Shown in pieces: positions 12,240 to 44,005 of a stretch of DNA of 64,000 bases (its first letter is position 1; the number at the start of each line of letters is the position of its first letter). Under the pieces are notes generated by a model that had not been told where the DNA came from, did no database searches, and saw only the letters and a list, made by a program, of their open reading frames with translations. The translations under genes and the position numbers were made by a program. Source of the stretch: Halichondria panicea (taxonomy: Eukaryota; Porifera; Demospongiae; Suberitida; Halichondriidae); assembly GCF_963675165.1 (NCBI RefSeq), contig NC_087380.1, positions 2,533,803 through 2,597,802 of the forward strand, given 5' to 3'.

Positions 12240-12930
12240 TCAGAATCAAACCAGTCCTGCATATCATGTTGTGTGCATGGTGTGATATCGGGACCAATGC
12301 TCAGGAGTTCACTGATATATAGCTGAGAACAAAATTTCTTTCTCAACAGTCAAAACATATTCAGCTGATCAGACTATCGAAGTTCTAGCTGGTGACGTGA
12401 TTGCATGGTGCTTGCATATATATACGACCCTCCTATAATGAGGGAGGGTTGTCCGGTTTCAGAGTGCAGCTGCATGCATGGGCATAGTTGGGTAACAAGC
12501 TGGTTCCAATTGATTCCTGATAGCATTAGCTCAAGATGTGGTAATTCAGCTGTTCCTAATTCTGTTTTAGTGGGTCTCAGTAGATTTTAGTGATCCTGCA
12601 AATAGAGATTAATTGTTTATACCACAATAAACCGTAATAACAATTCGATCCTTTACTAACTACCACACCAGTCCTCCAGCTGTGACTATATAGACATGCA
12701 GTTGTACAATATCGGAAACCTTTACCTCAACAGTTACTATACTCTATATACCCGCTGTTGAAACTTCTTCTGGGATATCAATATTTCTATCCCCAATTAG
12801 TTCAGTTGTGATTGCAGCATCGGTGACATCAACTGTTAGTCCAATAACACCAATTGCTATGTCCGCAATGTACACCGTGGCTATAGCAACATCGGAAGTA
12901 GTCTCCAGTAGCATCATCCATTGCAAGTGG
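12240..12930 (+). pseudogene. decayed relic of a six-Cys receptor ectodomain and stalk
   Basis: Nucleotide resemblance to member VI of the receptor cluster is plain. Sequence near 12290-12600 parallels its ectodomain exon (CCAATGCTCAGGAGTTCACT, then GCTGGTGACRTGATTG and the AYIYDPP-like stretch). Sequence near 12660-12900 parallels its Ser/Thr-rich stalk exon (CCTTACCTCAACAGTT, ATCAACTGTTAGTCCAATAA). About 200 bases of the ectodomain are missing and several stops interrupt the frame. Only a degenerate relic remains, marking the left edge of the cluster. Confidence 0.75.
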
Positions 12931-13075
12931 TTTAAACGTCCTGCATTAATTAGAAACAACAATTATAATTTTGTAATGTCTACGTCCTATAATTGTTAAA
13001 CACAGCACACAACTGACACACGACATAATTAACGTTATTGTTCTCTGCACATGCAATCAACTTTAATAGTGTAAC

Positions 13076-13178
13076 TAGCCTCGATCCCAGGCCGAGTTTT
13101 CGCTTTTATAACGGTTAGGCGAACAGTTGTTCGCCTAACCGTTAATAAAAGCGAAAACTCGGCCTGGGATCGAGGCTA
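13076..13178. mobile_element. palindromic MITE with 9-bp target duplication (copy 1)
   Basis: An almost perfect 103-bp palindrome beginning TAGCCTCGATCCCAGGCCG and ending in its reverse complement. It is flanked on both sides by TAGTGTAAC (13067-13075 and 13179-13187), a 9-bp target-site duplication. Nine-base duplications are typical of Mutator-like elements. Related copies lie at 18606 and 22778. Confidence 0.85.
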
Positions 13179-13190
13179 TAGTGTAACATG

Positions 13191-13252
13191 ATGTGGGCAG
13201 GCGAGAGCTCTGATGTGTGGGTGTTAGACTCTCTTTGGGAGGTGTGGCTGAC
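13191..13252 (+). promoter_or_regulatory. shared upstream module of receptor members (copy at member I)
   Basis: Contains GTGGGCAGGC, then TGATGTGTGGGTGTTAGAC and GGAGGTGTGGCTG, about 90 bases before the ATG. Comparable blocks precede members II (14791-14873), III (16821-16890), IV (18531-18597) and, more weakly, V (24718-24777). A shared promoter-proximal function is inferred only from position and conservation. Confidence 0.45.
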
Positions 13253-13342
13253 TGATTCACACTAGTAACCTACTCTATCTAGCTCTATGTCAATTGAACA
13301 AGCCATCAAGCTCTAGTTTATAGTTAGTGCTGTGTGTTCATA

Positions 13343-14660
13343 ATGGAGTTGTATGCATTCTGCCTCTGTTTCATCTTGTATGGTAAGCACAGAGAAGAGA
13401 CATCTGTATATATTTGTAGAAACTTGTATAGAGTCATAAGATTTTTGTACAGGTCTGCCAGTAGTTTTGTGTCAGCTCAACTGTACCGACCAAACCTTTG
13501 GTAGTGAAAACGAAACAGAATACACTGAAGCAACAAATATGATGGTGTTTCTCAACTTGAACGATACAGTCGAGTGCTACGGTACTGTCTCCTCGTATCG
13601 ATACTGTCACTACCCCACTACACAGGGTAATCCAGTTAAACACAATGCTATTTTAGCGGTGTTTCGATTGGAAGGCAATCCTTAATGGGATCAGAAGCAG
13701 CTATCGAAGTCACAAGTATCGAACCTTTCAGTTGTAGTACTGATATGCTTGCAGCCAGTGTACAGATTGAACCTGGAGATGTACTTGGAGCATGTGTAGG
13801 TCAAAGACGAACAGGTGGTAATAGAGAACAGCTGAATCTTGTTGGGACTGATGCGACCGGATTTTCTGTCAGCGGTGTGTCTGTCAGTGACTGTCCCTCA
13901 GCCTATATAAATTCAGTAACAGTTACTGAACTGACGAATTTTTCAGACAGGATTCTTCATCTCTCAGCTGAATTCGGTGAGTTATTAGACAATACTCATG
14001 CAGTAGTAATACGAGACGTTTAATTGTTTATATAGCTCCTGCTGAGCCTCCAACTACACTCACACCCACTGATCCCCTAAACACTGATCCCCTGGCCACT
14101 AATCCACTGACAAGCTCAGGCTCTCTTGTTCCCACTCCAACAACTAATCCACCAACAGGAGGCAAAAAATCGTCAGCTTTTGTGATTCAATGTTCAAACC
14201 GTTTCTATTAGGAGCTGCCACTAACAACACAGCTGGAGTTGCAGAGTTGGTGTTATTGTTGCTCTCCTGTTTGTGGTCATCCTTGTAGCTCTGATAGTAA
14301 TCATAGTGATCGTCATTAAGAAGCGTGGGAAAACTTCATACGCTCTGAAAGAACACAGAATCCACTCACCTGGTAATTTTAGTGCACAAACATTTCTAAA
14401 TCTGTTTGAATTTCCGGTTTATCATCAGATAATGAAGTAGAGCTCAGCTCTGAAGTTTCACTTACGAACATACATAGCGAGCATGGACAAACATTCACAG
14501 TGAAGTCCAACGATGCTTATGGAACTACCACCATGAACAATAGGTCAGGTACTACAGTCGAGGAACAACTCGGAATGTGTCATAATGAAGCATATGGTAC
14601 ATCTACTGTTGTTATGACAATGAAGATCATGAGTATGATATGTTATAAACAATGTTTCAA
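13343..14660 (+). pseudogene. receptor member I: kinase-less six-Cys receptor, broken
   Basis: Same layout as members II and III: signal exon 13343..13382 (MELYAFCLCFILYG), ectodomain exon 13453..13976, Pro/Thr-rich stalk exon from 14036, TM exon 14212..14372, tail exon from 14429. Compared with paralogues, the ectodomain exon has lost about 10-11 nt near 13680, which creates TAA at 13683 and shifts the frame. The stalk donor is GC instead of GT at 14162. The TM exon has a 2-nt insertion (GCAGAGTTGG for GCAGTTGG). With several independent lesions this copy is probably a true pseudogene. The tail retains NDAYGT and NEAYGT. Confidence 0.8.
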
Positions 14661-14790
14661 TAGAATCAAAATTATTTTTTTAGCGTGTCTTTCCACGAAT
14701 GTCTATTTTATGTTCACTGTGTGTGTGTCTCTGAATGGCATATTTTAGTGTGTGCATTATTGAAACCAGTCAAGCACATCTGTGTGCTGA

Positions 14791-14873
14791 ACTGGTGTTT
14801 GATGCGTGGGCAGGCTGGCTGACATCATGATGTGTGGGTGTTTGGTCTTTGGAGGCACTAGACGTGGCTGGCC
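14791..14873 (+). promoter_or_regulatory. shared upstream module (copy at member II)
   Basis: GCGTGGGCAGGCTGGCTGAC followed by GATGTGTGGGTGTTTGG and GACGTGGCTGG, about 107 bases before the ATG of member II. It aligns with the blocks before members I, III and IV. Confidence 0.45.
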
Positions 14874-14979: not shown

Positions 14980-16335
14980 ATGGAGGTGTACTCATTCTGC
15001 CTCTTTTTCATGTTGTATGGTAAGCATAGAGAATAGAGGCTGACATGCATTTGTAGATCTATTTGTAGAGAAAACTTTTAAAATTATCAACTAGATCTAG
15101 ATCTAACCACCTTTTTCTGTACAGGTTTGCCAGCAGTTTTGTGCCAGCTTGACTGTACAGACCAAGTTTTTGGGAATGAAAATGAAACAGAATATACACT
15201 GAGGCCACAGATACGATGGTGTACCTCAACTTGAACGATTCAGCAAAGTGCTATGGTACCCTCTCCTCGTATAAATTCTGTCACTACCCCATGACGACTG
15301 GGACAGATTACAATGCTTTTTTAGCTGTGTTTCGAAGACAAGGCGATACCTACGTACCCGTAATGGAGTCAGGAGCATTTCTCCAAGTCACGGTTGCTCA
15401 AGCCTTCAACTGTAGTACTAGTGTGCCTGAGGGGTCAGGCAGTGTACAGATTGAACCTGGAGATGTAATTGGAGTGTGTTTAGGGCCATTACAAGGTCAA
15501 AGAGAACAGCTGAATCTTGTTGGAAATGATGCAACTGGGTTTTCTGTCAGTGGTGTGTCTATATCTGGTAACTGCAATTTAAATACAGCAACGGTTACGA
15601 TTAGTGAACTGATAAATCTTCCAGACAGGATTCTTCATCTCTCAGCTGAATTCTGTGAGTTGATAGTACATATCATCACGAGATGTTCATAATTACTTCA
15701 TGTTCTTAGCTCCTTCTACCGAGCCCCCAACCCTACCTCCAACCACTGATCCCCTAAACACTGATCCCCCAGCCACTAATCAACCAACAAGCTCAGGCTC
15801 TCTTGTTCCCACCCCAACAACTAATCCACCAACAGGAGGTAAAAAATCATCAGATTTTGTAATTCATGTTCAAACCGTTTCTTGTAGGAGCTACCAACAC
15901 AGCTGGAGTTGCAGTTGGTGTTGTTGTTGCTCTCCTGTTCGTGGTCGTCTTGGTAGCTCTGATAGTAATCATAGTGATCGTCATTAAGAAGCGTGGGAAA
16001 ACTTCATACGCTGTGAAAGAACACAGAACCCACTCACCTGGTAATTTTAGTGCACAAACATTTCTAAATCTGTTTGAATTTCCGGTTTATCATCAGATAA
16101 TGAAGTAGAGCTCAGCTCTGACGTTTCCCATACGAACATACATAGCGAGCATGGACAAACATTCACAGTGAAGTCCAACGATGCTTATGGAACTACCACC
16201 ATGACCAACAGTAGGTCAGGTACTACAGTCGAGGAACAACTCGGAATGTGTCATAATGAAGCATATGGTACATCTACTGTTGTTAATGACAATGAAGATC
16301 ATGAGTATGATTATGTTATAAACAATGGTCAATAG
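14980..16335 (+). pseudogene. receptor member II: kinase-less six-Cys receptor with one frameshift
   Basis: Exons: 14980..15019 (signal, MEVYSFCLFFMLYG), 15125..15654 (ectodomain), 15710..15838 (Pro/Thr stalk), 15888..16040 (TM of Val/Ile/Leu then KKRGK), 16097..16335 (tail). One extra base near 15195 (TATACACTGAGG, where paralogues read TACACCGAGG) shifts the ectodomain frame. Everything after it is open and well conserved: C-x-GT, YxxCHYP, EPGDVIGVC, LHLSAEF. The tail ends at TAG 16335 and has NDAYGT and NEAYGT plus EYDYV. With a single lesion and strong conservation, an assembly error or recent loss are both possible. No kinase exon follows before member III. Confidence 0.7.
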
Positions 16336-16944: not shown

Positions 16945-18260
16945 ATGGAGGTGTATGCATTCTACCTCTGCTTCATCTTGTATGGTAAGAACAAAGAATA
17001 TAGAGAATAGAGGCTTAGATCTATGAACTATATAGACCACCTCTTTTTCAGTTGTACAGGTCTGCCAGCAGTTTTGTGTCGACCAAAATTTTGGTAATAA
17101 AAACGAAACAGGATACACCGAGGCCACAGATACGATGGTGTACCTCAATTTGAACAATCCAGCAAATTGCTCTGGCACACTCTCCTCGTATCGATACTGT
17201 CACTACCCCACAATGGATGCTTCTTTAACATATAATTCTATTTTAGCTGTGTTTCGATTGGTAGGCAGTGACTATTATGTAGCTGTGGATGGGTCAGACA
17301 TAGTTATTGAAGTCACAACCACTGAAGCCTTCGGTTGTGTCACTCTTCCATTCACTGCTACTGTACAGACTGAACCTGGAGATGTAGTGGGAGCGTGTGT
17401 AGGTCCAAGACAAGGTGGTAACAGACGTCAGTTGAATCTTGCTGGGAATAATGCGATCGGATATTCTGTCCGCGGTGCATCAAGATCTGGCTGTCCCACA
17501 AATAATTTAAATTCAGTAACAGTTATGAATAGTGAATTGCTGATTTTTCCAGACAGGATTCTTCATCTCTCAGCTGAATTCAGTGAGTTATTAGATAGCT
17601 AGTACAATACTTATGCAGTAGTATATAATACGAGTGATTATAATTATATTGTTCATATAGCTCCTACTGAGCCTCCAACTACACCCGCACCCACTGATCC
17701 CCCAGCCACTAATCCACTGACAAGCTCAGACTCTCTTGCTACCACCCCAACAACTAATCCACCAACAGGAGGTAAAAAATTGTCAGCTTTTGTGATTCAA
17801 TGTTCAAACCGTTTCTATTAGGAGCTGCCACTAACAACACAGCTGGAGTTGCAGTTGGTGTTGTTGTTGCTCTCCTGTTCGTGGTCGTCCTTGTAGCTCT
17901 GATAGTAATCGTAGTGATCGTCATTAAGAAGCGTGGGAAAACTTCATACGCTGTGAAAGAACACGGAACCCACTCACCTGGTAATTTTAGTGCACAAACA
18001 TTTCTAAATCTGTTTGAATTTCCGGTTTATCATCAGATAATGAAGTAGAGCTCAGCTCTGAAGTTTCACTTGCGAACATACATAGCGAGCATGGACAAAC
18101 ATTCACAGTGAAGTCCAACGATGCTTATGGAACTACCACCATGAACAATAGGTCAGGTACTACAGTCGAGGAACAACTCGGAATGTGTCATAATGAAGCA
18201 TATGGCACATCTACTGTTGTTAATAACAATGAAGATCATGAGTATATGATTATGTTATAA
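16945..18260 (+). pseudogene. receptor member III: kinase-less six-Cys receptor with one frameshift
   Basis: Exons: 16945..16984 (signal, [14 protein letters not shown]), 17060..17582 (ectodomain), 17661..17771 (stalk), 17822..17980 (TM), 18037..18260 (tail). Relative to member IV about 14 nt are missing near 17080 (just after GTTTTGTGTC), which removes the first cysteines and shifts the frame into a TAA. The rest of the ectodomain is open and very close to member IV. The tail again has NDAYGT and NEAYGT and ends EYMIML, a slightly different frame from member II. There is no kinase. It is either a pseudogene or a decoy-type receptor with an assembly error. Confidence 0.7.
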
Positions 18261-18725: not shown

Positions 18726-21700
18726 ATGGAGGTGTATGCATTCTACCTCTGCTTCATCTTGTATGGTAAGAACAAAGAATAGAGAATAGAGGCTGACATT
18801 TAACTAACTTATAATTATCTATTTACATTGTATCTAGCTAAGTTTGGCTATAATAATTTATGTATACCACCTCTTTTTGTGCAGGTCTGCCAGCAGTTTT
18901 GTGTCAGCTCGACTGTACCGACCAAGTTTTTGGTAATAAAAATGAAACAGAATACACCGAGGCCACAGATACGACGGTTTACCTCAACTTGAACGATCCA
19001 GCAAATTGCTCTGGCACACTCTCCTCCTACCGATACTGTCACTACCCCACAATGGATGCTTCTTTAACTTATAATTCTATCTTAGCTGTGTTTCGATTGG
19101 TAGGCAGTAACTATGTAGCTGTGGATGGATCAAACATAGTTATCGAAGTCACAACCACTGAAGCCTTCAGCTGTGTCACTCTTCCATTCCTTGGTAATGT
19201 ACAGACTGAACCTGGAGATATAGTGGGAGCGTGTGTAGGTCCAAGACAAGGTGGTAATAGCAGACGTCAGTTGAATCTTGCTGGGAATGATGCGATTGGA
19301 TTTTCTGTTCGCGTGCATCGAGATCTGGCTGTCCCACAAATGATTTAAATTCAGTAACAGTTATGACTAGTGAATGTATGGTTTTTCCGGACAGGATTCT
19401 TCATCTCTCAGCTGAATTCGGTGAGTTATTAGATATTACAATACTCATGCAGTAGTAATACGAGTGATTATATCATGCTCATATAGCTCCTACTGAGCAC
19501 CCAACCACACCCGCACCCACTGATCCCCCAAACACTGATCCCCTGACCACTGATCCACTGACAAGCTCAGGCTCTCTTGTTCCCACCCCAACAACTAACC
19601 CACCAACAGGAGGTAAAAAATCATCAGATTTTGTAATTCATGTTCAAACCGTTTCTTATAGGAGCTGCCGCCGATAACACAGCTGGAGTTGCAGTTGGTG
19701 TTGTGTTCGCTCTCTTATTCGTGGCTGTCTTGGTAGCTCTGATAGTGATTGTCGTCATCGTTATTACAAAACGTGGGAAAACTTCATACTCTCTAAGAGC
19801 CAATAACAACCACCAAGCTATCGGTGAGTTAAATTAATAATTGTCATCACATTCATGTATTAATGTGCAGGTATTGATAATCAAATCTATGGAACTGGGG
19901 AGCTGGAGTCAAGCTTTACTGATGGCAAAGATGTTGAAAATAATTACGAAGTGCCTCATGAAAATGGTGATATCTCTCCATATGAGGTAGTGCCTCCCAA
20001 ACGGATTGGGACAATGGCAGCTCCAGCATCTCATAAGAACCTGTCTGTTGCATCGCGCTCAGCCACCATGCCGTGGAACATCCAGCCTGCTCCATACGAA
20101 GGAATGGTAACTAAATCTATTTATGTCAATCTCTAAATAAGGTTGAGTAAGTCCCTTTTTTGTGTGAACGGTTGTAACAGTGTACGTATTCAGAGACTAT
20201 TACCATTGTGGGTGTATCAGCATCTGCTTGATATGGGATAGGTTATGAATACTAGGTTTGCTTATAAGGAGATAATTATTATTGGGAATTGACTTATTAG
20301 GTGTGTACACACACGCATGCACCACACTATCTCTAACTCATGCATGCATGCAGGCGTTTGGTGGTGATGTGTACTCTTCTCCAATTGATGCAATGAGATA
20401 CTCGGAACTTATTGAGCAGGTATAAATTATCAGATAATTGTTGACAAATACCTGTGTGTGGGAGCCGTTTAACATAAAATAAGCACTCTATGGTTTCTGG
20501 TTACCTTTGCTTGAGGTGAAATATTTACACATTAGCAACACACTGTTTATGCTAGACAGCCGTGTGTGTGTGTGTGTTGTTACAAGAGTATTCATTGAGT
20601 GTTGTTTTAAAATATAAAGCCACAAAAGCCCTACAATGTACGTCAATACTAACAAATACGTGAATGGTTATGATGCCAGTGTTGCGGGGAATCTTCTGTA
20701 GCACTTTATTGTATTGAGCAGTTAAAATTATATTATACACCTAATTTTCAGAACAAGGAAGAAGACATATACAGTAATGTGGACCCATTCCAAGCACCTG
20801 CCGCAGATGAAGATGAGATCTACTCGCAGCTGCATTCCTGGGGCATCCTAAACTTGTCCAGCAGCGATGTTGTGTGAGTTACATGTTGATCTCCCCCATT
20901 AATAATTGATTTGCTGTTTACATTGTCCTTCTATATAATGGAAGACTGTATTAAAACCATAATAGGCTTTTAGGCGTCCACAACTGATGCTATCTTTAAA
21001 TAACATTATCATAATTATACGGTAGTGGTTTTGCGGTCTATAGCTTCACCTTCAATTTCATGCTGGCAGTGGATTATAAGTTGAAGTATCACTATTGATC
21101 ACAACCACATGTAGGGCTTACATTGTTGAAAATAAATACGCACCCACAACATACAACATAATTATATATACTCACACTGCATGTAGCGTTTCAACTTATT
21201 TTGTTATCATAGAATAAAACGTCATCTCGGCTCTGGTCAGTTTGGTAGTGTGGAACTTGGTCAATGGAATAGACATGGAACTAAGCCAGTGGACGTGGCA
21301 CTCAAGAGTCTCACCAAAACATCAGAGGAGGACAAAGTCAAGTTCCTACAAGAAGCCGCCATCATGGCTCAGTTCAGACACCCTAACGTTATCATGCTTT
21401 ATGGAGTGATTGCTAAAGAGGAGCCAGTAAGTTATAGTAATATTCACTGTAGGGGCTGGGCTATAGGTTGTCCCTTCTTTGAATGGATTTATTTTTCTTT
21501 ACTTGAAATACAGTGTCTTATTCGGGGTACATGCATTAATTGTTTCACCCAACAGATGACGTTGGTTGTCGAGTTGGCCCAAAATGGAGATTTGAGAGAA
21601 TTCCTTCTTTCAATGAGACCTGAGTGAGTTATGCAGTTTTGACTCTACAATAAATTATATTTATTCTCACTAACAGGAGCTTTGGTGAAGAGTTAGACGA

Positions 21701-22583
21701 TCGTGCTCAAGATGATGGTACTATAACAGATGTGACTGAACGGAGGGAGAGGTCTAAGACACTGCCCCCTGAATCCAGCACCATGTTCCTGAAGTTCTCT
21801 CAACAAGTTGCTCTTGGGATGCAGTATCTGGCCGGCAAAGGATTTGTGCACAGAGACCTGGCTGCTAGGAACATTCTTGTAATCAAAAATAAAATTTGCA
21901 AGGTATAAATGTGATATATGAAGCTGAGTATCATACCTGCTATTGTGTATAGGTGGCTGATTTCGGTATGTCACGTGACTTGGAGAATGAGAGCTACTAT
22001 GTATCCCACGGAGGAAAAATTCCCGTCAAGTGGACAGCCCCTGAGGCCATTCACTACAAGAAGTACTCGACTGCCAGTGATGTGTGGGCCTACGAGTGTC
22101 TGCTCTATGAGATATGGAGCATTGGGCACAAGCCGTTTGAGGGAATTCGAAATGTGGATGTATGTTGCTATTTAGCATATTTTTTTTCACTTTTTGTCAT
22201 GTTTGTAGGTTATTGAGACTGTGGACTCTGGAAAACGATTGCCTCCACCTCCTGGAATACCAAAAATACTCTATGAGCTGATGATACTATGTTGGTAAGC
22301 TAGATCTATATAGCATTGTAGGCGCGTGATTATATTCCCTTATTTCCTTAGGCATCCTGAGACTGAGCTTCGCCCTGCTTTCCGTGATATTGTGTTGACG
22401 CTGGTTGGAAATAAAGAGAGAGTTTTGGACATTCCCGAGGAAGACTCCTCCACTAACCCACTGTCTGTCGTATTGGGAGCTCCACTGGAGGCCGGGGAGA
22501 ACATGTACTCTCAGCTGCAAAGTAGATATATTGATTACGCTGCACGTAAAGAAACTGAAGAAGACTATTTTGAGATTGATTGA
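18726..22583 (+). CDS. receptor member IV: six-Cys receptor tyrosine kinase with one frameshift
   Basis: Single-pass tyrosine kinase receptor. Exons: 18726..18765, 18885..19420, 19487..19612, 19662..19823, 19871..20106, 20354..20419, 20752..20873, 21213..21426, 21556..21623, 21677..21902, 21953..22159, 22209..22294, 22352..22583. The sum is 2321 nt, one short of a codon multiple, matching a lost G near 19312 (TTCGCGTGC, paralogue CCGCGGTGC). Order: signal peptide, six-Cys ectodomain, Pro/Thr stalk, TM, cytoplasmic exon with YEVP and YEVV, twin-tyrosine exon (DIYSNV and EIYSQL), kinase. The kinase is complete: [37 protein letters not shown], activation loop with tandem Tyr (ESYYVSHGG), TAPEA. 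One odd residue is WAYECLLYE where the other members have WAYGC or WSYGC. The tail carries ENMYSQLQ. The ligand is unknown. Confidence 0.8.
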
Positions 22584-22971: not shown

Positions 22972-24680
22972 GAACAACATGGAGAAGGACATCTACAGCA
23001 ATGTGGACCAGTTCCAAGCGCCTGCTTCAGATGAAGATGAGATCTACTCGCAGCTGCGTTCCTGGGGCATCCTCAACCTGTCCAGCAACGATGTTGTGCA
23101 TGTGAGTCACATGTTGATCTCCTTAATCCAATGCATTATTTTTTGTAGGTTTTGGTCTCCTAATAATTTCCGAGTATTAGCTATGATAGAGAAAAATTTG
23201 CTACACTGGATGGTGCATGTGTGTATAATGTATTGCTAACATTGTGGTATTTCAGAATTCATGCTGGGAATCTTGATGGTACTGGCCTGGCATGCCATCT
23301 TTGGGAATGTTGGAGCCAACAATGCATGGATTTGGGTGATATGCACCGTCTTGTAACGAACAAACATGGTGGAATTACGAAATGAGCGATGATAACTACA
23401 CGATTTCTCAAGTAACGACTGAAATAATGGCAAACAATATAGGCAAGCGGATAGTTTTCGAAGCCTCTGTGTACAATTAATGTTAAATGGTCATGTGCAC
23501 CACTTTTGTTTCACTAAAATAGAAGTAACGGAAATTAGGTGAGCATGGTCCAATTTGCTGCATGGTGGGTACCACACAAAAGCATAACTCCTTACCACGA
23601 AACAGCTTTCTGTCAGTGTCTGTTTTGCTTTGTCTATGTTCAAACAATAATCTGCAAGGATTTTGTTGTCACTACTTGACTACAGTACTAGTCTCACTAA
23701 CCATTGCCATGGAAGGCTAGAGTGCATCCAGTATGTCTAAAGAGTAGATTACTGACTAGTTGAATGTACAAATGTATTATCTGGAAGAAATTGTGCTGAT
23801 ATACCATTGTAGTGGTAGGTGAATAAAACTAGGGCATTGTTTGAAAATATTTGGGTAATCCATTTAGGTAAAAATGGGGGTGATCGTAAAAAATGTATTA
23901 ACATCACAATTATCTGGAACTAAAGTCTTTCTTATCAACAGCTTAGGCCATGCAAAGTCAATTTGTAGTTTCTCAGGCTATTATTAGGCATTTGTTAATG
24001 ATAATGATATTCATAGAATTTTAATTTAAAACACACCCCTAACTTCCTCAATAAGCAAAAGTGCATAATTTTTACTAAGTCATAATTATAGCGAAGCCTA
24101 AAATTTAAGGACAGATTAGAACAAGCTGTCAAGTAGTACTAAGCCTGCATGTGTGTAACAGTCAATAGATCACACAGGAAATGGCTTACACTGTTGAATA
24201 AAATAATAATATGGACCACTCTCAGTGAACAAAATACAGTGTTTAAATATTTTGTTCCCTTTGTGCTAAAGCATGCAAAATATAAAATGTGGATGTATAC
24301 GTCATCAAATCTAGATCGTTCACTCATGTGTGCATGGTTATTGAGACTTGCATGTGGACTCTGGAAAAGTTCCATTTGTGTAAACATGAATATGGTGTTC
24401 CCCTCTCCTTACTTAGGCATTTTGAGACCGAGTTTCGTCCTGCTTTTCGTGACATTGTGTTGACGCTGGTTGAAAATAAAGAAATGGTCAGACTGAGCAT
24501 TCGGAGAACTCCCTCCACTAGTCCACTGGCTGGGGAGTATTGGGAGCTCCACTGGAGGCCAGGGAAAACATATACTCTCAGCTGCAAAAGAGATACATGT
24601 ATATTGATTACACTGCACGTAAAAAATATTTTGAGCCAAAAAACAGTCCTTTTTGTAGTGTCAAGAGTTCAAAACTCTTG
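22972..24680 (+). pseudogene. fragment of a receptor kinase: twin-Tyr exon and last exons only
   Basis: At 22972-23102 the twin-tyrosine exon is nearly intact (DIYSNVDQFQ and EIYSQLRSWG), preceded by a CAG acceptor. At about 24340-24375 a decayed version of the penultimate kinase exon appears (GTTATTGAGACT, GTGGACTCTGGAAAA). At 24418-24640 the last exon is present with frameshifts (CGTGACATTGTGTTGACGCT, TGGGAGCTCCACTGGAGGCC). The kinase exons between are missing and 23103-24330 shows nothing recognisable. It is closest to member IV and probably a partial tandem duplicate. Confidence 0.8.
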
Positions 24681-24717
24681 GTAGTGTTAATATTGTGTCC
24701 CTGCTTTCATTTTCGGC

Positions 24718-24777
24718 CTATGGTGGGTGGGACTCAGATGTGTGGGTGTACAATTGAATTTTGGAGGCGTGGCTGCT
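24718..24777 (+). promoter_or_regulatory. weaker copy of the shared upstream module (member V)
   Basis: GATGTGTGGGTGTACAATTG followed by TTGGAGGCGTGGCTGC about 70 bases before the ATG. It resembles the block before members I-IV. Confidence 0.35.
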
Positions 24778-24846
24778 TTCTTCTATGTATAATAATTTTA
24801 ATGTTGTGATCTAGGTCAAAAGATCCAAGTTGCTGTAACTAAGCAA

Positions 24847-27800: not shown

Positions 27801-28475
27801 TGTGTTAGTGTAGACCTTATGGTGTCGGATATACTACACAGATCGCAGAGTTTGGCATGTCCCGAAACCTTGCCGATGAAAGCTACTATGTGTCGCAAGG
27901 GGGCAGGATCCCCGTTAAGTGGACAGCTCCTGAGACCATTCACTACAAGAAGTACTCGACTGCCAGTGATGTGTGGGCCTACGGGTGTCTGCTCTATGAG
28001 ATATGGAGTTTGGGACGCAAGCCTTTTGAGGGAATACAGAATATTGATGTAAGACTGACATTATATGACAGCAATCAATCTTTCATCCCAAATTCAGGTA
28101 ATCCAACTTGTTGACTCTGGCAAACGATTGCCTCCACCGCCTGGCTGTCCAAGGTTGATCTATGAGCTTATGACCATTTGCTGGTGAGTTGCGGTTACAG
28201 CATGCTTAGAAACTACTTCTATCACTTGTTTCACTAGGCACCCCCAAACAATGGTGCGTCCTGGTTTCCGTGACATTGTGCTGACGCTAGTTGGCAGCGA
28301 GGAGATGGTCTTGAACATTCCCGAGGAGGACTCCTCCACTAAACGACTGGCTGGAGTATTGGGAGCTCCACTGGAGGCCGGAGAGAACATGTACTCTCAG
28401 CTGCAGAACAGATACATTGATTATCTCCACAAAGCTGGAATGGAGACTGATACCGACTACTTCGATGTTCTTTAA
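24847..28475 (+). CDS. receptor member V: six-Cys receptor with probable pseudokinase
   Basis: Exons: 24847..24895, 25018..25635, 25686..26426, 26479..26723, 26914..26985, 27067..27188, 27249..27462, 27513..27580, 27625..27778, 27842..28048, 28098..28183, 28238..28475; 2814 nt, 937 residues, fully open. Order: signal peptide; ectodomain with six Cys (PGDILGAC); mucin-like Thr/Pro stalk made of 45-bp repeats; TM with [10 protein letters not shown] stop-transfer; acidic tail with YAEV; twin-tyrosine exon (DLYDHI and QLYGQL); kinase domain. The Gly-rich loop reads APSQFRSV rather than GSGQFGSV, and DFG reads EFG ([10 protein letters not shown]). The Lys (VELKCL), HRDLAARN, tandem Tyr (ESYYVS) and APE are kept. 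Weak or absent catalysis is inferred. An alternative ATG three codons inside the first exon is equally possible. Confidence 0.88.
25695..26075 (+). repeat. in-frame 45-bp tandem repeat encoding a mucin-like stalk
   Basis: About seven units of a 15-residue repeat (consensus [15 protein letters not shown]), followed by degenerate units, inside the stalk exon of member V. It is rich in Thr, Pro and Ala, as in O-glycosylated spacers. Unit sequences are nearly identical, which suggests recent expansion or homogenisation. Confidence 0.85.
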
Positions 28476-28692: not shown

Positions 28693-32408
<3,716 letters not shown>

Positions 32409-32665: not shown

Positions 32666-35600
32666 ATGACTGGAGCAGCTAGATATATCTGGCTTCTGTT
32701 TTACGGTAATTTAAAACTCTAATCGTTAAAAAGATAATGAAGACATAAAATTAGCTAAATCTAGTCTGCCGATAGATGATCTAGATATCTATATAGCTTT
32801 ATAAACTTGAATGATCTGTTGAATGAACTGTTATATAATTATGAATGAACTGTTCCCTCAGGGCTGCTAGTGAGCATTCATTGTGTCAGTGCCCAGTCTA
32901 CTTGTGGATGGATCGGAACAAATTCTACCACACCTACTACGGCAAGCATCCAGCAGCTGTTTGTGCTTAACATGCTGGAGCCAGCAACCTGCGACGGAAC
33001 CATCTCAAATTATCAATACTGCTACTATCCGCTGATGAATGAAATCAGTTCAAATAAAGAGATTTCTTTATCGTTTGAATTTGCAGTATATCGAAGTATT
33101 AATGATTCCTACAGAAAGATGTCCGACTCTATTTTTGTCGCACAGACTGAGGTGACTGTGAAACAAATTTGTGTGACAGGATATTTCTCAGATCCAATTT
33201 CTGTTGATAAAGGTGACGTACTTGGAGCTTGTGTCAATATTAGCGCTGACAATGCTAGTACGCAAGTTAGTCCGATTGGAAACAATTCAAATTCCAATAT
33301 GTATTTGTTGACAGCTGGCATCGACCTCTGTAGTGGTTCCATTCCACCCTCAATTCCAAGACAAAGTCTCACGGAGACAAGAGGATTAGTTTTACATCTC
33401 TCGGCTACCGTATTATCGAGAACTAACTCAGGATTGATAGCCGAAGAAATTGTTGCAATTGTCGTTCCTCTAGCAGCTATAGCAATTATTGCTGTCGTAA
33501 TTATTGTGATTTACTGGAGTTGCAAACGGAGACATAGCATCAGTCCATTTGCTTCAACTGAACCACTTCTTCCTCAAAACCCTGGATATGGTGAGTATGT
33601 AATTAGTTATGTCTACATTCTCGTCGTATTGATTGCTTCAGCTTTCTGAATATTCACTTGCTTCATATACTTTTTCTAGATAATGCTATGTACTATGATG
33701 TCAGCATTATGCGCGGTGGGCACCAGTACAAATCAAGAGCGGACTCTGGCACCTACGAAGCAGTGGATTCACCTGAGTCAAGCACACAGTTTCACACTCC
33801 CATCCTTTCTGACAACTCCGCTCCTGACGACACAAGAATAGACTCGGGAAGTTATGCCGTGGTCAGACACACCTCGGTTCATAACCGAGCAGCGTTGGTT
33901 AGCCCGAGGGAGAACAGGGAAGATATGGAGGCTTCTCAAAGACATGTGTACGAGTTAGAAATCAGTAGCAGAACGCGAGGTTGCTCTTTCGAGTGCTCCT
34001 ATGAGGATGTCAATCACTACGAACCTATGGTGAGATATACTCAACCACACACCCACATACCTATATATACATTGAGCTGGTGTTTGGCTGACTAAGAATA
34101 CTTCTATGCTGTTTTTAACACGCCACCTGTTTCGTCACAATATGCTAGTACCCTGGGATGGAGTATCTTGATCCTCTTCAGGCCACTGAGAAGCCTGTAA
34201 CTATCACACAGTTGTTGGAAATGGTGAGTGTAAACTGGGTCATTGCCCTTATACGTGGGTTTGGGTGTTTAATTTGCTACAACTTCCTCTAAAATAATTG
34301 TAACGGCTGTTAGAATATACTACATGCACTAGACTAGGTCCAATAAAATGCATGGAATTTCCTGTTTCAACACTTATTTGTGGAGTTGTATACACATAAC
34401 CTATATAGTATGTGTTTATATCTGTATTTCCTCTCAGAACAAGGAAGAGGACATATACAGTGAAGTGCGTCCATTCCAGCGGCCTGCCTCAATAGAGGTG
34501 GATCTGATGGGTCAGCTAAAATCGTGGGACATACGAACTCTGGCGAGAGACACAATTGAGTAAGTTCAAAACCTGTTGATATAATCTATAGAAGTTGTAA
34601 AGCAGTGCTTTCTTATCAAACTAACTCTGTATTTCCAATCATTTATCCTTACAGCGTACAGCTGGATATTGGAACGGGGCAGTTTGGTACCGTAAAAGAG
34701 GGAGTGTGGCAGGAGGAGGATGGCAGGTCCACTAAAGTTGCACTCAAGAGCCTCAAACACGATTGTGCTCCAGATGACAAGCTCAAGTTCCTACAAGAAG
34801 CCGCCATCATGGCTCAGTTCAGACACCCTAACATCATCATGGTCTTTGGGGTTGTGGTGGAAAGCCAACCGGTGAGTGACTTATAATTACAGAGTTTTGC
34901 AGAATCCTTGCACCAGGGCTAGGGATGCGGCGATTATGCGAGCATAATTTTGAGAATAATGGGTAGCTTGGAGCATTAGGAATTATGCGGGAATAAACGG
35001 TAGAGTGGGTGGGAATAATTATGCCACGTGGCTAGCATTCTAAATAAAGCACAATTACCATTGTTATTGTACTCTACATGTAGCTCTGATCTGATCTCTG
35101 GGCTAGAGACTGCAGCTAGCTAGCTAGCTAGCCTTACCGGTAAAGACAGACCATAGACAGTATAGTAGACTACTAGTACTTTATATGGAATCTGAAGAAA
35201 ATCAAGAGATTAGATTACTGAACCTACTGAAGCCAATTCCAGTTCCAACAAGTAGAGACATATCGATGTTGGATCAACTCAAGGCACTTCGTTTGGTGAT
35301 CAGCAAGACAATACTCTTCAGGACTATGTACATTATTATATCATTATGTAGAGACTTCCTTGTGTTGCAATTTATCAAAAGATGATTTTTATTGTGATTT
35401 TAATAAAGAATAATGATTTTTTTTGAGAATAATGGGCTAAATCACTGAGAATAATAGGCTATAGCTTGGGAATTGGAGAATAGAATAATGGGTAAAATTT
35501 GGAGCATAATAGCCTCAAGCCTAACCAGGGCTAAACAGACACAGCAATGACTTCCATATATGGAAGTCAACTGCTGACTTATAATATTGTGTACATGTAT

Positions 35601-37672
35601 GCAGGGTGTCATACAGGGGACTCTAGGGATATGATTATCCGAGTCCCCTCTGGCTCCAATTCCCCAGGCATTCAGGTACCTCAGTTGTTATGACTGAGTG
35701 CTGAGTGTCCATAGCTGTTGACTTTTTTTAATTATTCAAAGTCCCCTCTATAATTTAAAATCCTGTATGACAACCTGGTATGTGTATAATTATTTGAATA
35801 GCTTGAATTGAAAGATGTCCTGTGATCCTAAGAGAGCATCAGCTTATAAGGTGGCGGATGGTGCACCAGGTAGAAATGTCGTGAAGTTGGTGTGCTTCAG
35901 CTGTGTGCAGAACTGTTGCTCTTTTCAATGATATCAGAACAGTTGATAAACAAAAACACCAGCTGTATTGACTGATATTGATAAGCTTATCATATTAAAA
36001 CAATTTCAGAGAGGCCAGATATTATTTACTTGCGAGAGGTTCTTTCTAATGAGACTGGTACACATGTTGATGCAGATTTTCAATTGCATTTACTCACTGG
36101 CCTCGTATTAACAGCTTCTTAGACAGCTTGCCCCTAAGGTCTTATACTGTAACAAAATCTCCTCAGGCAATTTTTCTGTCAGTTCCCGTCTTGTCAGCAA
36201 AAATCAGCATTTTAGGATGACCATCGAAAATCTGCAAGTCTTAATTGAAGGTCACTTCTTTGCTTTGCAAACAAGAACCATCTCTTTTGTCTGGTTATAT
36301 TTGAAGAATGCAAAAACCTCCAACATAAACTGATAATAATAAGCTTATCAATATATCAGTCAATACAGCTTGTGAATAAGCTGATGCTCTCTTAGACTCA
36401 CAGAACATCTTTCAATTCAATATACATACCTGTATAATTATGTACACTATAGTAAAGCAGTTAATTTCCATATATGGAAGTCATTGCTGTGTGTTTAGCC
36501 TTGTTGCAAGGCTCTGAAAAACCCTGCACAAATTGCAAATTACAAATTACAAATTGTATACTAAAAACAAACAACTTGTTAATTGGTTTTTCAGATGATG
36601 ATTGTAGTTGAACTTGCTACTAAAGGAGACCTCAGAAACCATCTCATCTCCATAAGACCAGAGTAAGCTGTAATGTGTATTACAGAATTCAGAATGGGTA
36701 ATGGTATTGTAAGAGTGTATTGCTTTCTATACTTTTGTGGAGTTAGATGCAACATTTTTTTAAGTGTAATTTTGTTTTCAGTTTTAGACAATCGTATAAT
36801 TTATGCAGTCCTAATGAGAAGCCTCCCGAAGGATTGAGCAAAACATTCTTAGAGTTCTCTCAACAAGTGGCTCTTGGGATGCAGTACCTCTCAGCTAAAG
36901 GATTTGTGCACAGAGACCTGGCTGCTAGGAACATACTTCTGTCCAAAAAGAATGTTTGCAAAGTATGAAAATCATTCATTTTCTGATATAATTATTATAC
37001 TTTTGTTTCAAACACCAGGTTGCTGATTTCGGTATGTCTCGCGATCTTGCTGACGAGAGCTACTATGTATCACACGGTGGTGTAATCCCCGTCAAGTGGA
37101 CAGCCCCTGAGGCCATTCACTACAAGAAGTACTCGACTGCCAGTGATGTGTGGGCCTACGGGTGTCTGCTCTATGAGATATGGAGTCTGGGACACAAGCC
37201 GTTTGAATCGCTAACAAACATCCAGGTACGTTTCAATAAGCAGTGTGTAATCTATTTGTACTTTACGACTGATAATCATTTCTTATATATAGAGTCTAGT
37301 GAGCCTTTTAACTCAGTATAACATACTTTTTTCTATTTAGGCTTTAAGAGTACTGGAAGTTGGTACAAGACTCTCTCCACCTCCTGGCTGTCCAAAGATG
37401 ATTTACGAGCTCATGACCCTCAGCTGGTATATACAATTATAAGCTTAGCTTCATTTCAATTGCATATTTCTACGCACAGGCATTCTGAGAGTTCCCAACG
37501 TCCTGGTTTTCGTGACATCGTGTTGATGCTGATTGGCAGTGAGAAGATGGTCCTGAACATTCCCGAGGAGGACTCCTCCACTAACCCACTGGCTGGAGTA
37601 TTGGGAGCTCCACTGGAGGCCGGGGAGAACATGTACTCTCAGCTGCAGAACAGATACAGTAGAAGTGTATAG
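32666..37672 (+). CDS. receptor member VII: six-Cys receptor tyrosine kinase without stalk exon
   Basis: Exons: 32666..32705, 32862..33590, 33680..34029, 34149..34223, 34438..34559, 34655..34871, 36595..36662, 36782..36962, 37019..37225, 37341..37426, 37480..37672; 2268 nt, 755 residues, open. Ectodomain and TM are in one exon with no Ser/Thr stalk between them. The ectodomain has six Cys and DKGDVLGAC. The cytoplasmic exon has YEAV and YAVV. The twin-Tyr exon keeps the first Tyr (DIYSEV) but the second is Met (DLMGQL). The kinase has [40 protein letters not shown] and TAPEA. The tail is shortened after ENMYSQLQ and ends RYSRSV. The 1.7-kb intron between 34871 and 36595 holds two inserted elements. 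Confidence 0.9.
34912..35533. mobile_element. insertion in intron of member VII, AAT-rich ends
   Basis: Both boundaries carry CCAGGGCTA, a possible 9-bp target duplication. Both ends contain GAATAATGGGTA-type sequence; inside lies GAGCATAAT-type sequence and a 66-codon ORF (35185-35385) that I do not recognise. Class unknown. Confidence 0.45.
35529..36503. mobile_element. 0.97-kb foldback element in intron of member VII
   Basis: Outer arms ACAGCAATGACTTCCATATA and its complement near 36490; inner arms TTGAATTGAAAGATGT (35806) against ACATCTTTCAATTCAA (36420), and CAGCTGTATTGACTGATATT (35960) against its near complement near 36370. The arms are long and interrupted. I found no transposase. 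Confidence 0.6.
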
Positions 37673-40151: not shown

Positions 40152-41976
40152 ATGAGGTGCAGCACACTTTCTATAATTTCCTGTGCTTGTAAGTGTCTGC
40201 TTTAATATTTATCGCTATAGAATTAGTCTTTGCAATGAGTTAACTAGTTTTTCTATGCAGTGTTGGTGCTCCAGCAGCTGGTGTCTGGACAGCAGTGTGG
40301 TACAGTCGGTCGTGTGGGCAGTACAAGGACTGGTGATAATAGAGCATATAATGAGTTCTACATTGATCGTGGTAATCGTGCTGGATGTGCTGGGATGATC
40401 ACCTCACTCTCTTACTGTTTCCATCGACCACCATCGACTGCTCCAGTTGCTAACGAATACCTGACTACAGTTGCTGTGTACAGACCAGCGAGTACCAATG
40501 CAAATGAGAATATGTTTACTGTTGTTTCTTCACCGATCACAATACAAAAGTCAGCAACAGACCTTGAAGCTGAATTAAACGCTGCTGCTGATACTAACTT
40601 CGCCTGCTCTGCATTTAACCTACCACAACCAGTACCCATGGAAACTGGTGATGTTCTTGGAGCGTGTGTGTTTAACCCTGATGACATTACAACCTACCGT
40701 CTTGATATAGTCAGTAGAGCTGCTTTCAATAATGAAAACCTCGTGAGAACTGATACACAACCTAGTGTCCCTGCTGGCTGCAGTGCCGCCACTACTGTGC
40801 CAGGTTCCTTTGATGGAGGTGCATTTGGTGCAAGACCTATTACTGGAAGATCTCTCCACCTCTGGGCAAACATAGGTAAGTTAGGGTCTTATTATATACA
40901 AAGTGTTGACTGCAAGTAAATGTTATGTTCTACAAAAGAAACTACAACTGAAGCACTCACACCTTTTACAACTACACCTGAACTAACTGAGGACACCACC
41001 ACACTAGAAGACAGCACAACTGACATGACCACAGCAAGTGGTCCACTGATTACTAATGGAGACTCTACTACAGCAGCCACAAACCGAGGGACAACGAGCA
41101 ACCCTGATGCCACCACTGCACAATCCATTGGTGGTGGGGGAGGTGGTTCTAACGTAGCAACCATTGCCATTGCTGTGGTAGTTGCGCTCATTGTTGTGAT
41201 TGCTCTAGTCGCCATACTGTTGGTAATACTTGCGCTGTTAAGGAGACGATCAAAAACATTGGGTAAGTCACTATTTTGCAATATAATGTCTAAAGTGAAA
41301 CTACAACAGTTTGTTTACATTCGTACGTATGCAGCAAAGAGTCTACACTCGACTAGTCTAAAGTCCAACAAGGCTTGTGGTGTTCATGGTGAGACTCAAG
41401 ACACTCCCACAAACTACTATATGATAATGTTATTGATGAATCAAACACAGATAAAGTTAACACAGAGGAGCCTCTTTATGATACCGTCACAGACTCTAGA
41501 GAGGGAAGAGATATAATAGAAGGACACCTGTACATCTCAGGTATAAAATTGACATGTTTAATGTTATACCACATTCAGTTCTACAACCATGCTTATTATT
41601 CTATAGTCGTATATGTGACTGCTTATTATTTTGATGGTGTGTTTTAATTATTGCAGGACAATTAGCAACAACATGTATTCAACAGCCCATTGATTTAAAC
41701 CCCGGTGTGATTTATGAGGAAGTACCAGGACCTACACACCACAATGATGTTTGTCAGCTGATACCTTTGACAAGTAACGAAGCTTACGGTGTACACAAAT
41801 CTAGAACTACTACAGAAACTCCCGGTGAAACATGCTCACAAGACGTTGACCTGAAGTCCAACAACACATATGGAGTGAAAGGGGAGGTGCAAGTTGCTGC
41901 CATTAATGGGAGCACTGATGCAGTGTACTATAGTGTCATTGGTCAGATTCTGGAGAGACAGCAAGTGCATGCATAG
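40152..41976 (+). CDS. receptor member VIII: kinase-less six-Cys receptor, 2-nt frame break in tail
   Basis: Exons: 40152..40188 (too short to appear as an ORF; splices to give signal peptide MRCSTLSIISCALLVLQQLV), 40261..40875 (ectodomain, six Cys, ETGDVLGAC), 40939..41262 (Thr-rich stalk and TM), 41335..41540, 41657..41976. The sum is 1502 nt, two more than a codon multiple. Comparison with the relic at 38005 places a 2-nt insertion near 41406 (ACTCCCACAA against ACTTACAG). Without it the exon would read through LLYDNV, EPLYDTV and HLYIS; with it a stop follows at 41515. The last exon has SNEAYGV and NNTYGV and ends at TAG. There is no kinase before the next relic. Allele, assembly error and pseudogene all remain possible. 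Confidence 0.75.
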
Positions 41977-42289
41977 AACTGAATTTTAAATGGATATACA
42001 GCAATGAGACACATGGCACATCTGAGAGGGATAGTGACTATAATTATGATAATGCTATTCTGTAAACTGAATTACTTGATCTCGTTTTATCATGTAACAA
42101 CAGTTACTTATAGTGCAGTGTTTATTATTGTACATGCAAGTGCTGGTTAGAATGCTTATAATAATGCCTGCACCACCTTTCATGCATGTCTTGACAGGAA
42201 TCATTGCAAAATCCCAAGATTATACATTCCACGTGCAGACTTAATGTTAGATCTATACTAACACTACCACAAACAAATTAAGCTGACTG

Positions 42290-42580
42290 ATAAGTGGGGT
42301 TAAGTGTATGCAGCTGTTTCTTCACTGATCACCATAAATAGGTTGGTAACATGCAGATTCAATGCTGCTGCTGACATTAACTTTACCATGTACCTTGCCA
42401 ATACAATGAACCAACTATCAATGAATACAAAGAGACAATTTTCTAAATGGGTACACGAACAGTATATGCTATGTCAAACCATGCCATTGCTGTGGAAGTT
42501 ACTGAGTTTGCTTTAGTTGTCATACTAGTCTTGTGCTATAATAAGGAGACGATCTAAAGCATCCATTGTACTCAGTCAAT
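42290..42580 (+). pseudogene. decayed ectodomain/TM relic related to member VIII
   Basis: GTTTCTTCACTGATCACCAT and AATGCTGCTGCTGACATTAA match the ectodomain exon of member VIII. GCCATTGCTGTGGAAGTTAC and AAGGAGACGATCTAAAGCAT match its TM exon. The sequence in between is lost and the frame is broken. Confidence 0.65.
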
Positions 42581-42630
42581 CCGTAATTTATTAATTTTAA
42601 AAGTTGTCTGTAATAATCTTTACATGCATA

Positions 42631-42838
42631 TACCGTATAGCGGGGAATTTTCGTGGTGGTAAAAATTTCGTTTACCTTCAATGAGGTGATTTTCATAAGT
42701 ACAAAGTTCGTTCGACTTCATGCATGGCCTGCACTGAATTCCATGCATTCCAGTAAACCGCGCCTATGTTTTCATGGAGGCCAGCTTTCCTGCGAAAATA
42801 ACGAATTTTTACCCACGAAAATTACCCGCTATACGGTA
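42631..42838. mobile_element. CCGTATAGCGG-type MITE, well-preserved copy
   Basis: Starts TACCGTATAGCGGGGAATTT and ends CGAAAATTACCCGCTATACG plus GTA, so the ends are inverted repeats of about 24 bases. Internally it has TTTCG/CGAAA pairs. 208 bp, non-coding. Confidence 0.7.
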
Positions 42839-43129
42839 TGCATTCACTGATTGTGAGAGCATTGCAATTGCATATTATATATATAATATTATATCTGATT
42901 TGAATAAGCAGCATGTACATGAATTCATTGTTTGTATGCAAAGCGTGCAAGAAGCCCTCATTCTATCAGTCATGAAATTGACATTTAATTCTTCTTGTGG
43001 GAATACTTGCCTGCCCACTTATCAAAATAATCCAGGCCTTGACAATGAAGCATTCATAAATTATTGTACTGTACTAAGGCATGCATTATTATTGCAACAA
43101 TTAGCAACGCTTCATATGGCATTGATTAA

Positions 43130-43480
43130 AACCCTGTGATGGGACTTATGAGGAAGTAACAGGACCTATACACACTACAATGATCTGTGCATGCATGTCA
43201 GTTGATAATTATTTTTGGGCCTTATAGTGTCTACAAATCTGGAAATGAACAGAAATGCCCGGTGAATCATGCTCGTAAGAAGTTGAACTGAAGACCAACG
43301 AGGCGTATGGTATGAGAGGGGAGGTGAAAGATGTTGTCATTAATGGGACCACTGATGCAGTGTGCTATATATAGTGTCACTGACTCGCCTGGTCAGCAAT
43401 CTGGAGTGACAACCAGTGGAATTGAATTTGACAATGAGGCATATGACACATCTGAGAGAGATAGACAACAGAGGAGACCA
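43130..43480 (+). pseudogene. relic of receptor tail exon related to member VIII
   Basis: Parallels 41700-41976: GAGGAAGTAACAGGACCTA, ACTGAAGACCAACGAGGCGT (TNEAYGM), GGGACCACTGATGCAGTG. It continues into SGIEFDNEAYDTSERD, which suggests that the ancestral tail was longer than that of member VIII. Several frame breaks. Confidence 0.65.
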
Positions 43481-43510
43481 CCTCCACCCCCTTTTGCATG
43501 CATGACAAGT

Positions 43511-43561
43511 AGTCTCATGGATCAGCCCCTCGTAAGAAGGAGGGGGCTGATCCATGAGACT
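43511..43561. repeat. perfect short hairpin
   Basis: AGTCTCATGGATCAGCCCCT at 43511-43530 is answered by its reverse complement at 43541-43561 with a 10-base loop. It may be a tiny MITE; no target duplication is evident. Confidence 0.6.
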
Positions 43562-43929
43562 AGCAGGACAGGAGGAAATCGTTGCAAATCCTGCATTCCA
43601 TATTATACATTAGACAACTTTAATTATCTACTTCTACAAACATTAATGATAGATAAAAGTAGGACGAGATGCTTTCTGTATGTAATATTTGTTTCTGCTA
43701 TGTTAGTCTATGAGCATAATTATAATGATTATACTTGGCTTATTAATTGTTAGGGAATTAATCTGGTCCTATATATACTGGTGTTCCAGCAGCCCCATAA
43801 TTTATGCATGGTGTCTATAGACAGGGTTTGGGACTGATGAACGAAACCAGTTCAAATCAAGATATCGGAGTAGATCTAAGCTGTAATAATTATTAAATTT
43901 CAGAACTCATAATGGGTATTCGTTTTATA

Positions 43930-44005
43930 AGAGTGTTTATAGAGACCTGGTTGCTAGGCAATTTGAAATTCCATGGCATGTTGCTGATTTCGGTATATAT
44001 GACTC
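43930..44005 (+). pseudogene. tiny kinase-exon relic
   Basis: TATAGAGACCTGGTTGCTAGG is a decayed version of the HRDLAAR-coding DNA of members IV-VII, followed at once by GTTGCTGATTTCGGTAT, the VADFGM-coding DNA. The intervening intron and exon ends are gone. It shows the kinase family once extended to this edge. Confidence 0.55.

Follow-up and report, generated by a model that had tools for sequence, protein, structure and literature searches.

In vertebrates, paired activating and inhibitory receptors such as SIRP, PILR, KIR and LILR share their ectodomains. Among receptor tyrosine kinases, ErbB2 and ErbB3 are kinase-active and kinase-inactive partners with one ectodomain type, ErbB3 acting as a docking co-receptor for ErbB2; the discoidin domain receptors carry a galactose-binding-like beta-sandwich, and the Eph ligand-binding domain (LBD) adopts a jelly-roll fold. 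According to the accessible text of PMC12065747, the FcoR receptors of Botryllus and the Alr candidates of Hydractinia bear immunoreceptor tyrosine-based inhibitory motifs (ITIMs) and hemITAM motifs, and the same Botryllus tissue expresses SHP as well as receptor tyrosine phosphatases. Here we describe a cluster of receptor genes in the sponge Halichondria panicea, part of which lies in a window of 64,000 nucleotides (the whole stretch of DNA presented here; contig C4:2533803-2597802). The analysis covers one genome, of 131 Mb in 39 contigs; small coordinates denote positions in the window and large ones positions on the genome contigs (C4, C17 and so on). Ten Wnt matches, in three regions on C3, C6 and C12, mark the genome as that of an animal, and so small a Wnt set in a compact genome is in keeping with a sponge.

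The cluster extends over ~235 kb (C4:2.519-2.754 Mb), which makes it almost four times as long as the window, and three dozen or so cell-surface receptors lie along it, all with one disulphide-rich outer domain in common, a module of ~170-200 residues. The sequence analysed comprised C4:2514000-2764000 and the locus of an outlying copy at C4:1.653 Mb. The ectodomain types are common to two forms, one followed by a juxtamembrane (JM) exon and a tyrosine kinase, apparently active in most copies, the other by a tail. We propose, with a probability of roughly one half, that paired single-pass receptors are arrayed in tandem at this locus and that their kinase forms would phosphorylate the tails of the kinase-less forms. 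Like SIRP, PILR, KIR and LILR, the array places near-identical ectodomains on different insides in one cluster and has ITIM-like tails; unlike them, one partner has its own tyrosine kinase and not an adaptor with an immunoreceptor tyrosine-based activation motif (ITAM), its ectodomain is neither Ig nor C-type lectin according to Pfam, and its signalling output is a proposed one. With Botryllus fester/FcoR and Hydractinia Alr it has in common clustered single-pass receptors and ITIM-type tyrosine motifs, although FcoR are Ig/Sushi receptors for which the accessible text mentions no kinase domain (PMC12065747). A sponge-specific family, Src-Aque1, named in the accessible part of PMC8662651, is not the family of the array. 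Titles and abstract openings in the open-licence literature held no account of the domain or of sponge kinase/ITIM paired receptors, which is weak evidence of absence.

A preliminary description of the window had reported eight copies of the module (I-VIII) together with relics, four copies attached to kinases and four not. Reading frames, a seven-copy alignment and the profile built from it bear this out, and kinase exons follow copies IV, V, VI and VII and none of copies I, II, III and VIII. All the features below are on the plus strand.

13343-14748, plus strand: copy I, kinase-less, first exon from 13343, frame broken near 13685; ectodomain 13497-13978, transmembrane (TM) segment 14255-14317, T3 tail inside the frame 14410-14748
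15195-16332, plus strand: copy II, kinase-less, frame break near 15195; ectodomain 15195-15656, TM 15923-15985, T3 tail inside 16078-16332
17090-18257, plus strand: copy III, kinase-less; ectodomain 17090-17584, TM 17863-17925, T3 tail inside 18018-18257
18929-22580, plus strand: copy IV, kinase form, catalytic motifs intact; ectodomain 18929-19300, frame shift near 19310 with the remainder in 19291-19452, TM 19703-19765, JM exon inside 20674-20874, kinase exons inside 21187-22580
25107-28472, plus strand: copy V, kinase form; ectodomain 25107-25637, T-rich linker, TM 26279-26341, JM exon inside 27016-27189, kinase exons inside 27226-28472
28791-32405, plus strand: copy VI, kinase form, catalytic motifs intact; Met and signal-peptide-like stretch (by eye) from 28791, ectodomain 28863-29381, TM 30302-30364, JM exon inside 30942-31109, kinase exons inside 31137-32405
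32912-37669, plus strand: copy VII, kinase form, catalytic motifs intact; ectodomain 32912-33412, TM 33449-33511, JM exon inside 34333-34560, kinase exons inside 34560-37669
40305-41943, plus strand: copy VIII, kinase-less; ectodomain 40305-40877, T-rich linker, TM 41169-41231, tail T1 then T2 (T2 match 41707-41943) with ITIM-like LLYDNV, VIYEEV and VYYSVI
12284-12435, plus strand: relic of a VI-like ectodomain (12316-12435 at E 0.0074, VI-like residues just upstream)
24286-24806, plus strand: two remnants of the last kinase exon

To assign classes, we mapped TM segments, kinase exons, the JM exon (motif EDIY..PYExPA..IYxQLxxW) and tails over the cluster. The 33 plus-strand entries divide into 18 with the JM exon and the kinase exons K1-K4, 12 with the T1/T2 tail and three (I-III) with T3; of the three minus-strand entries, two have kinase pieces with no JM match and one has neither. 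None of the 15 kinase-less entries has an intact kinase ahead of the next ectodomain. The T2 tail gave 33 genome matches at E <= 0.01, every one inside the cluster. The kinase forms have what defines a receptor tyrosine kinase, namely an ectodomain, a hydrophobic TM stretch and matches to PF07714, with the signal peptide recognised by eye. Their catalytic motifs are kept wherever the search pattern located them, the exceptions being one loop Gly in two copies and copy V, whose kinase (27226-28111) has a degraded glycine loop, APSQFRS, and EFG in place of DFG, and which is likely a pseudokinase.

Which inside a receptor has is not predicted by the kinship of its ectodomain. In the tree of 34 ectodomains (20 kinase, 12 kinase-less and two unassigned rows), the kinase label needs nine changes, at least six of them forced by starred branches, and 169 of 500 label shuffles need as few. 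Five pairs of a kinase-less and a kinase copy, chosen by us, show how close the ectodomains of the two forms can be.

2750102 (kinase-less) and 2753648 (kinase): ectodomain identity 99%
2639293 and 2642234: ectodomain identity 97%
III and IV: ectodomain identity 91%
2679594 and 2683084: ectodomain identity 83%
2722374 and 2718264: ectodomain identity 80%

In these pairs the DNA is 83-96% similar from the upstream flank through the ectodomain and the linker, and the similarity stops within the TM codons (two pairs) or 27-95 bp past them (three pairs); one pair has an extra similar piece of 73 bp located 1.5 kb downstream. Conversely, kinase-less copies with VI-like (five) and VIII-like (four) ectodomains have a mean identity of 33% in the ectodomain and 80% in the T2 tail, and kinase copies of three ectodomain types (two VI-like, four VIII-like and two of a third type) are 33-39% identical in the ectodomain and 85-93% in exon K3. 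Unlike ectodomains with alike insides, together with the break of similarity at the membrane, indicate that outer and inner halves have been recombined, in either direction. The array, as predicted from its genes, thus combines what distinguishes paired receptors: near-identical ectodomains on different insides within one cluster.

Both insides appear to be under constraint. The ratio of nonsynonymous to synonymous substitution (dN/dS) was estimated by NG86 using only pairs with dS 0.02-0.8, which are not independent because the copies share descent. The median was 0.26, 0.28, 0.23 and 0.36 for K1-K4 (115, 101, 143 and 146 pairs), 0.22 for JM (23 pairs), 0.37 for T1 (33) and 0.44 for T2 (89). 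For the ectodomain it was 0.52 (100 pairs), 1.4-2.3 times the kinase values; positive selection is not claimed, as single ectodomain pairs ranging from 0.11 to 1.76 prove none. In the 12 T1/T2 copies, 25 of 149 tail tyrosines match [SIVL]xYxx[IVL], compared with a mean of 5.2 and a maximum of 12 in 500 within-piece shuffles. The ITIM-like site V[TI]YE[EV]V is found in 11 of these 12 copies and V[CY]Y[SR][VF]I in all 12, and no ITIM-like site was found in 20 JM pieces. What links these tails to the ITIMs of paired receptors is a consensus match, in the T1/T2 copies.

We propose the paired-receptor mechanism because the outside is shared, two insides are kept and the similarity breaks at the membrane. 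A shared ligand, or contact between cells, would gather kinase and kinase-less forms, and the kinase partner would then phosphorylate the kinase-less tail in trans. The conserved tail, with about ten tyrosines of which one or two lie in ITIM-like sites, could in its phosphorylated state recruit SH2 proteins, a SHP-type phosphatase being the best candidate reader. In this way the kinase-less form would tune or oppose the kinase form, with a presumably inhibitory sign, and the system may have a role in recognising cells or microbes. A candidate reader exists in the genome: at C3:8406287-8404573 (minus strand), two SH2 matches are followed by the first part of a tyrosine phosphatase (PTP) match, an order that suggests a single gene for a SHP-type phosphatase. 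The genome has 176 PTP matches, many of them on C4 and at least 23 off C4 among the matches listed. Three minus-strand pairs of PTP matches lie within the receptor cluster, near 2.584, 2.594 and 2.604 Mb, and a frame with Sushi and EGF_CA matches (55207-55677) stands upstream of the first pair, with which it probably forms one gene. Two of these loci fall in the window.

49343-55677, minus strand: probable receptor tyrosine phosphatase gene inside the cluster; PTP 50792-51082 and 49343-49636, Sushi and EGF_CA in 55207-55677
59544-61333, minus strand: second phosphatase-like gene; PTP 59544-59888 and 61031-61333

We regard it as unlikely that the locus encodes a full complex for self/non-self or microbe recognition, in which the receptor tyrosine kinases would form the activating half, the ITIM-like receptors with the same ectodomains the inhibitory half, exchange of ectodomains would keep the halves in step and receptor phosphatases would be interleaved.

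The ectodomain itself defines a family whose core lies in the cluster. A profile from the seven aligned window copies scores these at E 2.8e-70 to 3.9e-53, by construction, and also recovers copy I in two pieces (E 1.1e-24 and 4.2e-21) and the displaced end of copy IV (E 2.4e-6). Protein searches of the genome gave 40 matches with VI as query and 34 with V, all on C4 and nearly all at 2.519-2.754 Mb. An iterated profile search yielded 34 near-complete domains (those covering 125 or more of the 170 profile positions), 33 in the cluster and one at C4:1.653 Mb that is 81% identical to VI, besides many fragments. As a control, the iterated profile was run against 7,889 reading frames from the cluster and the outlying locus after reversal or shuffling, with best E values of 0.62 and 1.7, respectively. 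Two diverged minus-strand copies, and then two new finds, used as queries led to weaker relatives on contigs C2, C4, C14 and C17, with profile E values of 2.3e-12 to 0.0042 in a small search over fetched pieces.

C4:2770486: weaker relative, by profile search
C17:3173270: weaker relative, by profile search
C17:5372914: weaker relative, by profile search
C17:4256342: weaker relative, among the least certain (E 0.0042, covers part of the model)
C2:6575511: weaker relative, by profile search
C14:843-856 kb: weaker relatives at three near-identical places, among the least certain (E 8e-6 to 7.9e-4)

Since such relatives lie on other chromosomes, we abandoned the view of the domain as restricted to this cluster. 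By eye, each of the five relatives outside C14 has a hydrophobic stretch resembling a TM segment, either in its own reading frame or in the one after, and the frames of four relatives scanned against Pfam gave nothing above cut-off. No relatives of the module were confirmed in one scan of viral contigs and two scans of prokaryote genome contigs. On the minus strand, two diverged ectodomains (C4:2525414 and C4:2524259) stand in tandem before the one TM segment found, possibly as a single receptor with two outer domains.

The sequence motifs named in the preliminary description (DPxxCxGT, YCYY/YCHY, GDxxGAC, QLxxVG and LHLxA) are all present in the alignment, and its statement that it knew of no named family with this pattern agrees with our scans of curated families. 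It had also given six aligned cysteines for IV-VIII; all six are present in V-VIII, but copy IV loses the sixth in frame through the shift near 19310. For the wider family, cysteines were aligned in 39 rows, the 34 near-complete domains plus the five relatives outside contig C14, whose genes were left out. The first four are conserved in every covering row (36/36, 38/38, 38/38 and 39/39, respectively), and the fifth is Cys in 31 of the 39. The eight rows lacking the fifth (three minus-strand copies and the five relatives) are gapped at the sixth, and four of them carry one or two Cys at other positions. Where the fifth is present, the sixth is Cys in 26 rows, Tyr in two and a gap in three, two of which are truncated, the third being copy II, probably through an alignment slip. 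A six-cysteine pattern thus describes the plus-strand clade but not the whole family, from whose eight diverged rows the fifth and sixth are jointly gone. We infer a four-cysteine core with two disulphides, to which the main clade would add the pair of the fifth and sixth cysteines as a third.

Sequence searches gave the domain no name. No Pfam family passed its cut-off, whether seven window pieces or 25 members were scanned (the best sub-threshold E was 0.047), nor did any PHROGs or NCBIfam family with nine members (best E 0.057 and 0.12, respectively), and among PDB sequences the 25-row profile found no match and the seven-row profile one at E 0.13. This lone match, to LAMP, disappeared once the alignment was enlarged. 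On score, we accepted neither it nor uromodulin D8C (E 0.057 in two of 25 members), the Eph ligand-binding domain, discoidin or other sub-threshold Pfam matches. By sequence comparison, the receptor domain, absent from the libraries searched (Pfam, PHROGs, NCBIfam and PDB sequences), is a new addition.

Two structure models were built from different lead sequences and nearly the same rows, all from the window (pLDDT 59.0 and 64.9; pTM 0.62 and 0.68). Each is a beta-sandwich whose nearest structures are jelly-rolls. The best VIA matches are both phage proteins, at Z 10.2 (root-mean-square deviation 6.2, 164 aligned) and Z 9.7 (3.8, 161 aligned). VIA Z ranges from 7.0 to 10.2 for phage tail and capsid proteins, from 7.2 to 8.3 for carbohydrate-binding modules (CBMs) of carbohydrate esterases (8.3 for that of FjoAcXE), from 8.2 to 8.3 for the lectin-like domain of Cwp84 and from 5.6 to 6.7 for PHR domains, and is about 5 for TNF ligands, with the caution that Z < 8 may reflect merely a common arrangement. 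Foldseek found no match at E <= 0.001 in the PDB, and one viral predicted structure reaches E 9e-4 in the structural search. Eph and discoidin structures are absent from the best 50 VIA rows, which is not evidence for a different fold. The models make a jelly-roll likely as the fold class of the ectodomain, a common fold that does not imply membership in a family. The preliminary description had named a strong match to a described family as the result that would overturn its view; no sequence match of that kind was found, yet the predicted fold is nonetheless a common one. In VIII-like ectodomains, variable columns tend to avoid the predicted strands (24/69 in strands vs 60/111; p 0.014); VI-like ectodomains (19/68 vs 40/108; p 0.25) have no clear bias, and we do not lean on this result.

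Several observations weigh against paired receptors, and the first of them favour the view that the kinase-less copies are decoys or relics, which have lost the kinase and drift with no signalling role. Copies I and II have broken frames, as does kinase copy IV, and kinase remnants adjoin some kinase-less copies (a degraded piece after 2750102 and K4 stubs at 2624679, 2637410 and 2737523), amid many ectodomain fragments. Because of the frame breaks and the adjoining remnants, part of the kinase-less class may be decaying duplicates. The three T3 tails have a dN/dS of 0.56 (three pairs) and no ITIM-like site; the ITIM consensus spans few residues, and many other tyrosines are present in the tails; and motif counts, like dN/dS pairs, come from copies related by descent. 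In four of the 18 kinase entries, moreover, the final kinase exon is itself followed by tail pieces. Ectodomain fragments stand near three of these tails, which we for that reason take to be relics of kinase-less genes, and none near the piece after VII. Even so, we consider decay of the class as a whole improbable: the tail is unlike the kinase inside, is 80% identical over two ectodomain subfamilies and has a median dN/dS of 0.37-0.44, and the two ITIM-like sites are retained in 11 and 12 of 12 copies. Somewhat more credit, though still well short of a favoured explanation, goes to the kinase-less form as a positive docking co-receptor, whose tail would be a scaffold amplifying the kinase signal as ErbB3 does for ErbB2. 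Both systems have kinase-active and kinase-inactive partners sharing an ectodomain type; the recognised tail pieces hold 9-19 tyrosines per copy, with several Yxx[VIL] sites, joined in some copies by YxxP, and, as copy V illustrates, catalytic motifs can be lost from a kinase copy. Unlike ErbB3, however, the partner here is without any kinase domain and has its own separate tail family, and the two best-kept sites among those tested fit the ITIM and SH2-SH2-PTP matches exist in the genome, although both are compatible with docking too.

A third alternative concerns the outside: the ectodomain could be a diverged or permuted form of a known jelly-roll (Eph ligand-binding, discoidin/CBM, C1q/TNF or PHR) and the locus an ordinary expanded family of receptor tyrosine kinases. 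Both models being jelly-rolls, with Z up to 10.2, is in keeping with this, as is the kinase of copy IV, which in the PDB search is nearest to Eph receptors when scored per domain; EGFR as nearest kinase was rejected, the 252 bits of 9p9u being two 125-bit copies in one chain. The array would share with Eph receptors this kinase and a jelly-roll outer domain, and with discoidin domain receptors a receptor tyrosine kinase with a predicted beta-sandwich, but none of 25 array members matches PF01404 (Ephrin_lbd) or discoidin (F5/8 type C) in Pfam at E <= 1. The 26 Ephrin_lbd matches of the genome are all off C4, on contigs C3, C14, C6, C10, C2, C11 and C1, and the module has a weak likeness, in shifted register, to the 12 of them that were fetched. 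This likeness covers 31-33 columns (hhalign P 6e-4 to 9e-4; best hmmsearch E 0.0019, among 39 sequences only), but hhalign gives it a probability of 12-28% and aligns the N-terminal part of the module with the C-terminal part of the Eph LBD, which may reflect chance or a permutation. As no Pfam, PHROGs or NCBIfam cut-off was passed, the 25-row profile had no PDB match and VIA scores below 8 are open to the caution above, we find a known family in disguise doubtful.

Several of the 12 fetched Ephrin_lbd domains are very alike across contigs, with an array at C3:6.68-6.82 Mb. A dense run of PF07714 matches at C1:15.5-17.4 Mb, of ~126-132 bits each, may be a large kinase array. In the window, a perfect inverted repeat of 34 bases at 13076-13178 encloses a second inverted repeat and might be a small hairpin element. 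At 44251-48695, minisatellites of 27-base units form two facing arrays, ~4.4 kb in total, that carry long accidental reading frames, and the minus strand at 1508-8258 has two Peptidase_S8 pieces together with a proprotein convertase P-domain, which may be tandem furin-like genes.

If the array does consist of paired receptors, an early-branching animal would have paired-receptor logic with an intrinsic kinase, independent of Ig domains and ITAM adaptors. The cluster would then be a concrete candidate locus for the recognition of cells or microbes in such an animal.

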